The notes beneath the pieces are model-generated. The model was not told where the DNA came from, ran no database searches, and saw only the letters and a program-made list of their open reading frames with translations. A DNA stretch of 56,073 bases, taken from assembly GCA_016882525.1 (NCBI GenBank), contig VGPU01000010.1, positions 1-56,073 of the forward strand, read 5' to 3'. Shown piece after piece: positions 25,038 to 51,789 of the stretch. This DNA comes from Cyanobacteria bacterium M_surface_10_m2_119. Lineage in GTDB: Bacteria > Cyanobacteriota > Cyanobacteriia > PCC-6307 > Cyanobiaceae. Numbering within the stretch: the stretch's first letter is position 1; each line of letters starts with the position of its first letter. A program made the translations under genes and the position numbers.

Positions 25038-25442
25038 ATGCAAAGCGATTCTCCGGTTGCCGCCGACCCTGGGCCTCCCACGATTGCGGAGATGGAGGCC
25101 AGTGATCGTCCGTTTGTTCTCGCGGATGCCCTAGGCAATGTGCTGCGCTTCAACCGCCCCTTTGCTGAGGTCTATGGCTGGAGCGATGCCCAACTGGTGG
25201 GCGAACCCCTCGGTCTGATCCTCCCGGACGCCTTCCGGATGGCGCATCAGTTCGGGTTCTCCCGCTTTCAGGCCACCGAGCGCTCCACAATCCTGGCCCA
25301 TCCCCTGCGCCTGAAGACCCTCTGTGCCGATGGCCGTGAGCTGGTCTCGGAGCACTTCATCGTTGCCGAGAAGGGTGATGCCGGTTGGCTGTTCGGGGCC
25401 ACGCTCACCCCGCTGCCCGATGGCACGCCCGCCGACGCATGA
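25038..25442 (+). CDS. stand-alone PAS-domain protein
   Basis: The 134-residue product contains one PAS domain (about residues 28-125): FVLADALGNVLRFNRPF, EVYGWSDAQLVGEPLGLILP and the distal ADGRELVSEHFIVAEKGDAGWLFGATLTPL. The YGWSDAQLVG part is the family's helix region. No kinase, HTH or catalytic domain is attached. The stop TGA overlaps the ATG of the downstream PAS-GGDEF-EAL protein by four bases, so they are probably made in step and act together, the short protein perhaps as sensor. Confidence 0.85.
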   Translation: MQSDSPVAADPGPPTIAEMEASDRPFVLADALGNVLRFNRPFAEVYGWSDAQLVGEPLGLILPDAFRMAHQFGFSRFQATERSTILAHPLRLKTLCADGRELVSEHFIVAEKGDAGWLFGATLTPLPDGTPADA

Positions 25443-27199
25443 ATGAGGAGTCGGGCCTGGTACGGGAGCTCCGCCGTAGCCTGGCTCGCCTTGAGCTGGC
25501 CCTCGCCCAGATTGCCGATGGCCTGGCCATCACCGATGGCCAGGGACAGCTGCTCTGGTGCAACGCGTCCTTTGAGGGGCTGATCGGCCGGCCGCGGCTG
25601 ATGCTGCTGGGGCAGCCACTGGCCGCCTTGCTCCGCGATGCCGTGGACGCCGATCGGGGCCTGGGGGTGGATGGTCTGGTGGCGGCGCGCCCCAAGGGCG
25701 GCAACGTCACCACCGTGGTGAGACGGGAGCCGCTCCAGGTGGTGGAGATCCATTGGCGTCCTGTCCATCTCGAGCAGCCGGCCCCTTACGTCTTCACCTT
25801 TCACGATGTGAGCGACCGGGTCTCCCTCGAGGAGCTCCGCCACCGCTCCCAGGAGCTGATGGATCAGCAACTGGCCCTGGCGGAGCAGGTGCACACCTGT
25901 CCGGTGACGGGTCTGCCCAACCGGCGGGGGCTGGCGATTGCCATCGAGGATGCACTGGTCCGTCTCGATCGCCATCCCGGCTGGCTGGCGGTGTTGTTCT
26001 GCGACCTCAATCGCTTCAAGGAGGTGAATGACACCTACGGCCACCGGGTGGGTGATCAGTTGCTGATCGAGCTGGCCCAGCGCATGAAGGAGGTGCTCAG
26101 GCCCAACGACGTGCTCGCCCGGCTGGGGGGCGATGAGTTTGTGCTGCTCTGCACCGAGCTCAAGGCGGCTGAGGATGCGGTGCAGATTGCCGAGCGGCTC
26201 CTGCAGGTGGTCGGTCGACCCTGGCGGCCGGAGATCAGTGATGTGCCCTTCGTGATCACCCCCCAGGTGAGTGTCGGCATTTCCCTCTGCAACGGCTGCG
26301 GGCTGAGTCCGGACCAGCTCCTCCATGACGCCGATCTGGCGATGTATGAGGCCAAGCGCCGCCCGGACCGGCCGGTGGTCGTCTTCGATGAGGAGATTGC
26401 CCGCACCCTTGAGTGGCGGGTCCAGATCCGCTCCGCTCTGGAGCAGGCCCTGCGCTCCCAGCAGCTCACGATGCACTATCAGCCGGTGGTGGAACTCGCC
26501 AGCGGCCGGGTGGTGGCATATGAAGCCCTCGTCCGTCCCCAGCATGCGGATGGTCGGCTGGTGTCCTCGGCTGACTTCATCGCGGTCGCGGAAACCTCCG
26601 GCCTGATTCAGGCCCTTGGTGAACTGGTGGTGAGCCAGGTGCTGCAGGATGCACGCCACTCCGGCCTGCTGGAGCGCGGCCTCGGGCTGGCCGTGAACTT
26701 CAGCACCCAGCAGCTGGGTTGCAGTGGCCTGGCCAAGGAGCTGATCGCCGCCGCCCGGCGTTTCGGGTGCCCCCCCGCCCTGCTCACCGTGGAGGTCACG
26801 GAAACGGCGCTGATCGAGCAGCCGGAGCGCACCCGCGAGGAGCTGGCCCAGCTGCGCCAGGCTGGTTTTCGGGTGGTGCTCGACGACTTCGGCATCGGCT
26901 ACTCCAGCCTCAATTGGCTGGCGGAGCTGCCGATCGACGGCCTGAAGATCGACCGGAGTTTCACCGCCACCATGCTGGAGGACCGGCGTCGCCACGCCTT
27001 GATCGCTGCGGTGGTGAACCTCGCCCGGGAGCTGCAGCTGGAGGTGGTCGCCGAGGGGATCGAGTCCGAGGACCAGAGGGCGGCCCTGCTGGCGATGGGC
27101 TGCAGCCTGGGACAGGGTTTCCTGTTCGCACAGCCCCTCAGCCCGGCGGAAGCTCTGGGCTCCCCGACCCCAGGACCGCTTCCTCCAGCAGCATGTTGA
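25439..27199 (+). CDS. PAS-GGDEF-EAL cyclic-di-GMP turnover protein
   Basis: The 586-residue protein has a PAS domain (about residues 20-125), a short coiled coil, a GGDEF domain with intact RLGGDEF (about 230) and an EAL domain with YEALVRP (about 360), DDFGIGYSS and KIDRSF. Both the diguanylate cyclase and phosphodiesterase signatures are intact, so it may be bifunctional with one activity dominating. No transmembrane segment is seen, so it is probably cytoplasmic. It is coupled by an ATGA overlap to the upstream PAS protein. Its last 62 bases overlap the convergent gene. Confidence 0.95.
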   Translation: MNEESGLVRELRRSLARLELALAQIADGLAITDGQGQLLWCNASFEGLIGRPRLMLLGQPLAALLRDAVDADRGLGVDGLVAARPKGGNVTTVVRREPLQVVEIHWRPVHLEQPAPYVFTFHDVSDRVSLEELRHRSQELMDQQLALAEQVHTCPVTGLPNRRGLAIAIEDALVRLDRHPGWLAVLFCDLNRFKEVNDTYGHRVGDQLLIELAQRMKEVLRPNDVLARLGGDEFVLLCTELKAAEDAVQIAERLLQVVGRPWRPEISDVPFVITPQVSVGISLCNGCGLSPDQLLHDADLAMYEAKRRPDRPVVVFDEEIARTLEWRVQIRSALEQALRSQQLTMHYQPVVELASGRVVAYEALVRPQHADGRLVSSADFIAVAETSGLIQALGELVVSQVLQDARHSGLLERGLGLAVNFSTQQLGCSGLAKELIAAARRFGCPPALLTVEVTETALIEQPERTREELAQLRQAGFRVVLDDFGIGYSSLNWLAELPIDGLKIDRSFTATMLEDRRRHALIAAVVNLARELQLEVVAEGIESEDQRAALLAMGCSLGQGFLFAQPLSPAEALGSPTPGPLPPAAC

Positions 27200-50175: not shown

Positions 50176-50451
50176 TCAGCCGCCGGCCACGGCGGGCACG
50201 ATCGACACCTCGTCGCCGTCGTTGAGGGCGGTGGCCTCGTTCTCGAGGAAGCGGATGTCCTCGCTGTTCACATAGATGTTGAGGAAGCGGCGCAGCTTGC
50301 CGCTCTCATCGCACAGGCGGGCCTGGATGCCGGGGAAGCGGGCCTCCAGGGCCTCCACCAGGGCGCTCACCGTGCCGGCCTCGAGGCTGACGCTGGCCTC
50401 GTCGTTGGTGAACTTCTGCAGGGGGGTGGGGATCAGGACCTGGATGGCCAT
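50176..50451 (-). CDS. MoaD/ThiS-like protein with Gly-Gly end
   Basis: The 91-residue protein has the beta-grasp pattern of MoaD/ThiS sulfur carriers: [13 protein letters not shown], a helix with [27 protein letters not shown], and the end [13 protein letters not shown]. The Gly-Gly end is what an adenylating enzyme would activate and a thiocarboxylate would form on. It lies 69 bases downstream of threonine synthase on the same strand. In Mycobacterium a similar neighbour (CysO) feeds cysteine synthesis. No activating enzyme is in the window. Confidence 0.88.
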
Positions 50452-50520
50452 GGTGGTGGAGATAAGGAGAAAACGGGGGCAGGACTGCCGCCCTGGGGAT
50501 CTGGAGCGCCTGGGTGCAGA

Positions 50521-51789
50521 TCAGCCGTTGGCGTGGCTGGCCTGGGCCTGCTGCCAGGCGGCGTTGAAGCTGTCGAGCTGGGCCTCGATCGTGTAGGGCG
50601 CACCGATCGCATCCACCACCGCTTCGGTCGTCTTCAGACCGTTGCCGGTGATGTAGGCCACCGTGCGCTCCTCGGGGTTGATCTTGCCCTGCTCCACCAG
50701 CTTCTTGAGCACCGCAATCGTGGTGCCGCCGGCGGTTTCGGTGAACACGCCCTCGGTTTCGGCCAGCAGCTTGATGCCCTCGATGATCTCGGCGTCGTTC
50801 ACCGCGGCGATCGTGCCCTGGGTGGCGTTGGCGATGTCGATGGCGTAGGGGCCATCCGCCGGGTTGCCGATGGCGATCGACTTGGCGATGGTGTTCGGCT
50901 TCACCGGGGTGATGAAGTCGCGGCCTTCGGCGAAGGCCTGGGCGATCGGGCTGCAGCCCTCCGCCTGGGCTCCGCTGAAGCGCACCGCCTTCTCCTCCAC
51001 CAGGCCGCACTTGATGAATTCATCGAAGCCCTTGCGGATCTTCGTGAACAGGGAGCCGGAGGCCAGGGGCGCCACGATGTGGTCGGGCAGCTCCCAGCCC
51101 AGCTGTTCGATCACCTCGTAGCCGAGGGTCTTGGAGCCCTCGGAGTAGTAGGGGCGCAGGTTGATGTTCACGAAGCCCCAGCCGTAGGTGTTGGCAACCT
51201 CCGAGCACAGGCGGTTCACCTGGTCGTAGTTGCCCTTCACCGCCATCAGGGTGGGGTTGTAGATCAGGGTGCCAAGCACCTTGCCCAGCTCCAGGTCGCT
51301 GGGGATGAACACGCAGCACTCCAGGCCGGCGTGGGCGGCAATGGCGGCGGTGGAGTTGGCCAGGTTGCCGGTGGAGGCGCAGCTCACGGTGGTGAACCCC
51401 AGCTCGCGGGCGCGGGTGAGGGCCACGCTCACGACGCGGTCCTTGAAGGACAGCGTCGGCATGTTCACGCCGTCGTTCTTGATGTACAGGCTCTTGAGGC
51501 CCAGGCGGCGGGCCAGGTTGTTGGCCTTGAGCAGGGGCGTGAAGCCGGTGCCCACATCGATCGGGTCGCCCTCGATCGGCAGGAATTCGCGGTACCGCCA
51601 GATCGAGGCGGGTCCGGCTTCGATCGTGGCGCGGCTGACGCGGCTGCGGATGGCGTCGTAGTCGTAGACGACTTCCAGCGGGCCGAAGCAGACGTCCTCG
51701 CAGACGTGACGAGCGCCCGGCTCATAGGCATGGCCGCATTCCTTGCAGCGCAGGCCGGTGAAGGTCGAACGGGAGAGCGTGGCTGTCAC
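50521..51789 (-). CDS. thrC: threonine synthase
   Basis: The 422-residue PLP enzyme has an N-terminal cysteine cluster (GLRCKECGHAYEPGARHVCED, about residues 13-33), the Schiff-base lysine in LSFKDR (about 105), a central beta region and GGTTIAVLKKLVEQG near the end. The N-terminal cysteines and length fit cyanobacterial ThrC. It converts O-phosphohomoserine to threonine. Start GTG 51789; the longer frame covers the divergent UPF0182 start. TAGCCT at 51818-51813 may be the -10 box. Confidence 0.93.
   Translation of the reverse strand: MTATLSRSTFTGLRCKECGHAYEPGARHVCEDVCFGPLEVVYDYDAIRSRVSRATIEAGPASIWRYREFLPIEGDPIDVGTGFTPLLKANNLARRLGLKSLYIKNDGVNMPTLSFKDRVVSVALTRARELGFTTVSCASTGNLANSTAAIAAHAGLECCVFIPSDLELGKVLGTLIYNPTLMAVKGNYDQVNRLCSEVANTYGWGFVNINLRPYYSEGSKTLGYEVIEQLGWELPDHIVAPLASGSLFTKIRKGFDEFIKCGLVEEKAVRFSGAQAEGCSPIAQAFAEGRDFITPVKPNTIAKSIAIGNPADGPYAIDIANATQGTIAAVNDAEIIEGIKLLAETEGVFTETAGGTTIAVLKKLVEQGKINPEERTVAYITGNGLKTTEAVVDAIGAPYTIEAQLDSFNAAWQQAQASHANG

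Follow-up and report, generated by a model that had tools for sequence, protein, structure and literature searches.

A ThrC-like enzyme and a CysO-like carrier encoded side by side in cyanobacteria as a probable MetM/MetO pair for homocysteine synthesis

Sequence comparison suggests that two adjacent genes of a cyanobacterial draft genome, one coding for a PLP-dependent enzyme resembling threonine synthase and the other for a small protein ending in Gly-Gly, are the cyanobacterial form of MetM/MetO and would make homocysteine with carrier-borne sulfur; we put the probability of this reading at roughly 85%. The idea as such is not new, having been published for Streptomyces under the names MetM/MetO. 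What is added here is the genome evidence that the pair is the sole searched-for route to homocysteine in 55 of 92 genomes of the class, together with its exchange for MetA at the level of the family.

The gene pair and its conservation

The contig of the window (the whole stretch of 56,073 nucleotides that was analysed) belongs to a 2.62-Mb draft genome with an estimated completeness of 99.9%. On the minus strand the enzyme gene comes first, followed after 69 bp by the carrier gene; coordinates and strand thus confirm what the first-pass annotation had described as a small Gly-Gly protein directly after a thrC-like gene on the same strand. The features referred to below are the following.

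50521-51789, minus strand: metM-like gene (labelled thrC by the model), 422 aa, PLP-dependent enzyme with a GTG start, predicted homocysteine synthase
50176-50451, minus strand: metO-like gene, 91 aa, predicted CysO-like sulfur-carrier protein
50452-50520, minus strand: spacer between the metM-like and metO-like genes, 69 bp
51688-51747, minus strand: N-terminal four-cysteine stretch of the MetM-like enzyme (C15, C18, C30, C34), putative zinc site
51442-51444, minus strand: codon of K116 in SFKDR of the MetM-like enzyme, expected PLP Schiff-base lysine
51127-51168, minus strand: NINLRPYYSEGSKT, residues 208-221 of the MetM-like enzyme, replacing NSVNPYR.QGQKT of ThrC
50179-50184, minus strand: C-terminal Gly-Gly of the MetO-like carrier, expected site of adenylation and thiocarboxylation

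At the GTG start of the enzyme a relative (L013) aligns at the same place with MTATLSRS, and the C-terminus of the carrier reads PAVAGG. No Rfam family matched the window, spacer included, above its gathering score. Elsewhere in the window, at 25385-27196, a PAS-GGDEF-EAL protein is encoded.

Conservation was assessed in a phylum sample of 194 genomes with a completeness of at least 90%, 92 of which (the source genome included) fall in the window's class by kinship labels. With metM called in class genomes at an identity of at least 75%, 81 of the 92 contain the enzyme, and exactly these 81 contain the carrier too; the enzyme orthologues of the class are 75-97% identical to the window enzyme. 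The carrier gene lies next downstream on the same strand in 77 of these 81 metM genomes, across a gap of 47-702 bp, and the pairs that are not adjacent are 18 kb apart (G070), far apart (G079) or on different contigs (G087 and G187). Outside the class, no enzyme among the matches listed for the 194 phylum genomes is more than 41% identical to the window enzyme, and the single carrier match in these genomes is weak (G032, E 8.3e-9). We also examined named loci, the best 80 of 538, with cyanobacterial record titles. The most similar enzymes among them come from Cyanobium and other Synechococcaceae, for which reason the window's class is taken to be Cyanobacteriia. Synechococcus sp. RCC307 (L093) carries metM, and Picosynechococcus sp. 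PCC 7117 (L116) carries the pair. A complete carrier lies downstream of the enzyme in 78 of the 80 and ends in AVAGG in 77 of the 78 complete copies; in L058 and L121, which have no complete carrier, the contig stops 123 and 195 bp past the aligned enzyme. The pairing of enzyme and carrier is not due to chance and, with 77 of 81 pairs adjacent, the initial doubt as to whether thrC-moaD-like pairs are conserved in other genomes falls away.

Two further carrier-like sequences were noted near metM or metO genes. In one genome the intact metO is followed some 5 kb further on by a partial second copy (G181:C1:225828-226049; residues 18-91, 69%), and on a Leptolyngbyaceae contig a MoaD-like stretch, 34% identical, lies upstream of metM (L121 3575-3781).

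The enzyme compared with canonical ThrC

The window enzyme scores 328 bits against the TIGR00260 thrC model (cut-off 167) and passes Pfam PALP as well, which agrees with its original description as a PLP enzyme. The same genome encodes a canonical ThrC on another contig (C20:20095-21150) that scores 332 bits with the thrC model, and since the two scores are nearly equal this model cannot separate MetM from ThrC. A canonical ThrC was also found in 79 of the 81 metM genomes. When a tree was built, MetM and ThrC formed separate groups with branch supports of 99/94, the Nonomuraea enzyme described below falling on the MetM side; the outgroup branch of this tree is very long and its bootstrap is not fully settled. 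The window enzyme neither groups with the canonical threonine synthases nor shares their fixed residues, and comparison of 17 sequences of MetM with 17 of ThrC gave 37 positions that are fixed differently. Among these, R162 of ThrC corresponds to Y215 of the window enzyme and N159 to R212. Both residues lie in NINLRPYYSEGSKT, where N210, R212, Y215 and S219 are group-specific, and the ThrC stretch replaced here, NSVNPYR.QGQKT, is the one which we take to bind the substrate phosphate. K116, on the other hand, is invariant among the aligned MetM members; its SFKDR motif matches that of canonical ThrC, and its lysine is presumably the PLP Schiff-base lysine of the family. The window enzyme thus resembles canonical ThrC in PLP fold family, lysine motif and expected substrate, with 36-41% identity among the matches listed, but differs in the fixed positions, in having a carrier partner and in a cysteine-rich N-terminal extension. 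The four cysteines of this extension, which is absent from the canonical ThrC of the source genome, could bind zinc. In two members, L037 and L164 2140-3453, the CxxC cysteines have been replaced (SKEGG and SKEGN), and because of these losses the putative zinc site is not essential.

The window enzyme is therefore probably not the threonine synthase of the cell, and the name 'threonine synthase' is probably wrong. As a statement of its main role the first-pass label finds no support, given the separate ThrC and the 37 fixed differences, and a second ordinary ThrC as main role was rejected in view of the separate canonical ThrC, the distinct tree group and the fixed differences. Two of the metM genomes, G164 and G044, contain metM and metO without any canonical ThrC match, and since that match is absent MetM may make threonine there. 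G164 additionally holds MetX-like and PF01053 proteins.

The carrier and its candidate activating enzyme

The carrier passes Pfam ThiS with 66.9 bits (cut-off 22.5). It remains below every NCBIfam cut-off, narrowly for moaD_arch (48.9 vs 49.5) and SAMP1 (53.4 vs 60) and far below for moaD (22.1 vs 66.15) and thiS. Its nearest solved relative is chain 3dwg_C (M. tuberculosis antigen cfp10A, E 2.6e-22), which we take to be CysO, the cysteine carrier of M. tuberculosis; the ThiS/MoaD protein of 4n6e is also among the nearest. These relatives are the reason for assigning it to the beta-grasp carriers and, together with the Pfam ThiS score, they bear out the beta-grasp, CysO-like character first read from its sequence. 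By the function of CysO, MoaD and ThiS, the Gly-Gly end would presumably be the site of adenylation and thiocarboxylation.

Membership in the ThiS/MoaD family and a Gly-Gly end would equally be expected of a MoaD of molybdopterin synthase that sits beside the enzyme by chance. However, the genome encodes a different Gly-Gly MoaD-like protein right beside MoaE, 30% identical to the window carrier over 77 aa, the window carrier misses the moaD cut-off by the margin given above, and its linkage to metM is conserved. We give this explanation almost no credence: a role as MoaD for molybdopterin was rejected because MoaE already has its own MoaD-like neighbour, and with it goes the concern that the small protein might serve only MoaE, to which the window carrier has no link.

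A ThiS-like carrier is encoded in the genome as well. The genome has one ThiF-family match, an E1 fused to a rhodanese domain (C8:39252) that scores above the NCBIfam MoeB cut-off, and because this match is single the three carriers (MetO-, MoaD- and ThiS-like) would share one E1. Directly before it on contig C8 lies a JAMM-type peptidase with the motif HxHP...SxxD. The earlier statement that no E1 is nearby thus holds for the window, which contains none, but not for the genome, where a MoeB-like partner is indeed present as the MoeB-rhodanese protein behind the JAMM peptidase.

CysM/CysO/Mec of Mycobacterium tuberculosis is a carrier-based cysteine system. A route of this type, from O-phosphoserine to cysteine instead of homocysteine, would be in keeping with the closest solved relative of the carrier, taken here as CysO, and with the JAMM and E1-rhodanese proteins of the genome. 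Yet the enzyme partner in the window is not CysM-like and belongs with ThrC rather than with the cysteine synthases, two other proteins of the genome exceed cysteine synthase cut-offs, JAMM and E1 are encoded on another contig, and the exchange partner of the pair is MetA (see below). We regard a cysteine route as extremely unlikely.

Among 20 other genomes (17 with metM, 3 without), the JAMM gene lies directly before E1 in 15; E1 is 1.4 and 2.2 kb from JAMM in two of the rest, and the stretch contains no E1 in three. Of the 81 metM genomes, 19 yielded no JAMM match at E<1e-15, and JAMM is kept in 6 of the 10 family genomes that lack metM. For both reasons JAMM does not belong to the route in general, and as an obligatory partner it is not supported by its distribution across metM genomes and metM-lacking family genomes. 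A different arrangement was seen in G171 (L162 3626-5862), where JAMM, a second CysO-like carrier (at about 4409-4684 of L162, ending in AIAGG) and E1 stand in a row, apart from metM-metO. The account of Iyer et al. 2006 (PMC1779556) lists JAB-E1 units for cyanobacteria, with ThiS/MoaD, JAB and E1-rhodanese together in row 4b. The JAMM-E1 unit found here resembles that row, as does the unit of G171 with the carrier between the two; the main text of PMC1779556 mentions neither 'threonine synthase' nor 'homocysteine' (0 occurrences each).

Homocysteine routes, exchange with MetA and the proposed role

To count other routes, PF01053 (the MetB/MetC/MetY family) was taken as present at E<1e-40, with at most nine candidates scored in genomes where more than nine existed, fragments in G044 and G149 counted as present and a 79-residue fragment in G089 (E 9.8e-23) counted as absent. 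None of the 194 genomes is free of weak PF01053 matches, and matches of E 1e-6 to 1e-12 were taken, without individual inspection, as related aminotransferases. No PF01053 match of E<1e-40 was found in 55 of the 81 metM genomes, the source genome included, and 26 of the 81 have one alongside metM. The MetX model gave no match above its 500-bit cut-off in the 194 genomes or in 14 control genomes, so the threshold was set at E<1e-50, with fragments in G044, G058 and G169 counted as present; such a match occurs in 21 of the 81 metM genomes, among them G169 of the window's family. The source genome has no MetA (PF04204) match, and its best PF01053 match has E 7.2e-6. With the MetX model it yields two partial weak matches near contig starts (C30:182-718 and C57:8-472, best E 2.3e-20), and these pieces may belong to one gene of a divergent MetX-like family whose members elsewhere score about 90-115 bits. 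Neither a MetX/MetY nor a MetA/MetB route was found in this genome by the MetX-model, PF01053 and PF04204 searches. Across the class, the pair is the only homocysteine route among those searched (PF01053, MetA, MetX) in 55 of 92 genomes.

One near-complete genome of the class, G046, has a canonical ThrC and no match to metM, metO, MetA or the MetX model, its PF01053 match being only weak (1.0e-7). It is possibly a methionine auxotroph, provided that no other route exists.

Within the window's family MetA and its partners take the place of the metM pair in many genomes, and the two are nearly mutually exclusive. In the phylum sample, all 10 family genomes without metM hold two full-length PF01053 proteins and MetA, which by coordinates adjoins one of the PF01053 genes in 10 of 10; the 3 family genomes with metM have neither such full-length PF01053 proteins nor MetA, although a MetX-like gene is present in one of the three (G169). 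Beyond the family, a single further genome of this sample (G036) holds MetA, and it has metM too. The same question was put to a family sample of 222 genomes (completeness 95%): 91 contain metM only, 129 metA only, 2 both and 0 neither, and by genus a hand tally gave 14, 15 and 2 of 31 for metM only, metA only and both. Since the exchange follows clades, the genomes are not independent and, owing to shared descent, a Fisher value is no true probability. The telling point is the absence of 'neither' genomes, because it means that two unrelated entries into homocysteine are never both missing among the 222. The sole carriers of metM and metA together, G345 and G393, are possible intermediates of the exchange.

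A tie to methionine that is independent of the literature comes from Nonomuraea gerenzanensis, as its pair (L131) sits behind a SAM riboswitch. This enzyme is 54% identical, and the carrier next downstream 48% identical, to the window pair. The riboswitch (RF00162, 68.7 bits, L131 4816-4957) lies upstream of metM and ends 13 bp before the ATG taken as its start (4971); the actinobacterial evidence consists of this one record of 11.85 Mb, filed as a plasmid. No Rfam SAM riboswitch was detected in the window or in the 20 cyanobacterial metM loci scanned (of 30).

In the Streptomyces system, as reportedly described by Hasebe et al. in 2024, MetO is a sulfur carrier which in its thiocarboxylated form lets MetM turn O-phosphohomoserine into homocysteine. 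MetM/MetO of Streptomyces albulus likewise comprises a ThrC-like PLP enzyme and a sulfur-carrier gene, with O-phosphohomoserine as substrate. It differs in its upstream SAM riboswitch, none having been seen in the cyanobacterial loci; the window pair is a predicted member, its kinship having been gauged via the Nonomuraea pair (54% and 48%). With MetM/MetO the window pair shares a ThrC-like enzyme distinct from the cell's ThrC and a Gly-Gly carrier gene next downstream; it is furthermore related to the actinobacterial pair and occurs in a genome without strong matches to the usual homocysteine enzymes. Another precedent is the HcyS/MetY/HcyD system of Wolinella, in which a carrier thiocarboxylate is said to be used to make homocysteine (work attributed to Krishnamoorthy and Begley, 2011). 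That system uses MetY and O-acetylhomoserine, and with no strong PF01053 match in the source genome there is no MetY-type partner here.

O-phosphohomoserine is an intermediate that canonical ThrC uses as well. In the mechanism we propose, the MoeB-rhodanese E1 would adenylate the Gly-Gly end of MetO and load it with sulfur via the rhodanese domain. MetM would bind O-phosphohomoserine and, as expected from its family, loss of phosphate would leave a PLP-bound unsaturated intermediate. The MetO thiocarboxylate, or sulfide, would then attack the gamma carbon, replacing the water step of threonine synthase; attack by either on this carbon was reportedly found for Streptomyces by Hasebe et al. in 2024. 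Hydrolysis, perhaps aided in some genomes by the JAMM peptidase next to E1, would release homocysteine, which would go on to methionine.

The Microcystis orthologue is described in PMC12172450, where Hasebe et al. 2024 is the reference given for MetM as a homocysteine synthase of Streptomyces with cyanobacterial homologues. According to its passages on this enzyme, S. albulus MetM and the Microcystis 'ThrC' are 51.6% identical, the gene beside 'thrC' resembles metO (47.25%), and a SAM riboswitch lies upstream of metM in S. albulus and not upstream of the Microcystis gene. Addition of threonine raised the MetM orthologue 10.5-fold and the metO-like neighbour 6.8-fold, and the toxicity of threonine was relieved by methionine or alanine (PMC12172450). 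We infer that threonine excess starves the Microcystis cell of methionine, so that the methionine operon is turned on. In vitro, the orthologue displayed threonine synthase and threonine deaminase activity; the passages on its incubation with O-phosphohomoserine, with or without sulfide, report an HPLC peak near methionine that was not assigned and no homocysteine identified (PMC12172450). The same source found that methionine did not increase where cellular ThrC was high, and its conclusion is that in vivo the enzyme apparently falls short of full MetM function.

Such activities could also be those of a second, cyanobacteria-specific threonine synthase with a deaminase side activity, the small protein being an accidental or unrelated neighbour. 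A score above the NCBIfam thrC cut-off and the two metM genomes without a canonical ThrC match point the same way. Against this, the pair is kept in 77 of 81 genomes, canonical ThrC is present in 79 of 81, metM is replaced within the family by metA, a methionine gene, the Nonomuraea pair carries a SAM riboswitch, and threonine induces rather than represses the Microcystis gene along with its metO-like neighbour (PMC12172450). We consider such a second threonine synthase quite improbable.

A further alternative places MetM at the branch point and lets it make either product, homocysteine when thiocarboxylated MetO is at hand and threonine otherwise, so that the sulfur load of the carrier would set how O-phosphohomoserine is split. 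The one substrate common to both reactions speaks for it. We still consider it because G164 and G044 have no canonical ThrC match and because the Microcystis orthologue has been reported to form threonine without the carrier (PMC12172450). A separate ThrC, which would then be needless, is however kept in 79 of 81 metM genomes, and we judge a two-product MetM to be unlikely. If it were true, the sulfur load of one small protein would set the split between methionine and threonine across much of the cyanobacteria.

The reading as MetM/MetO returns to what the first-pass annotation had proposed, namely that a ThrC-like enzyme could use a thiocarboxylated carrier and O-phosphohomoserine to produce homocysteine. 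That proposal matches the published Streptomyces system and agrees with the genomic findings: the pairing is conserved, 79 of 81 metM genomes hold a ThrC besides, 55 of 81 lack a strong PF01053 match, the pair and MetA replace each other within the family, and the Nonomuraea pair has a SAM riboswitch. The pair offers a candidate for the homocysteine step where cyanobacteria show none of the usual genes, as in those 55 of the 81 sampled metM genomes. The standing annotation 'threonine synthase' would be corrected, and the published 'moonlighting threonine synthase' would gain an alternative reading. Within one family, two unrelated homocysteine routes swap almost exclusively between its two halves.
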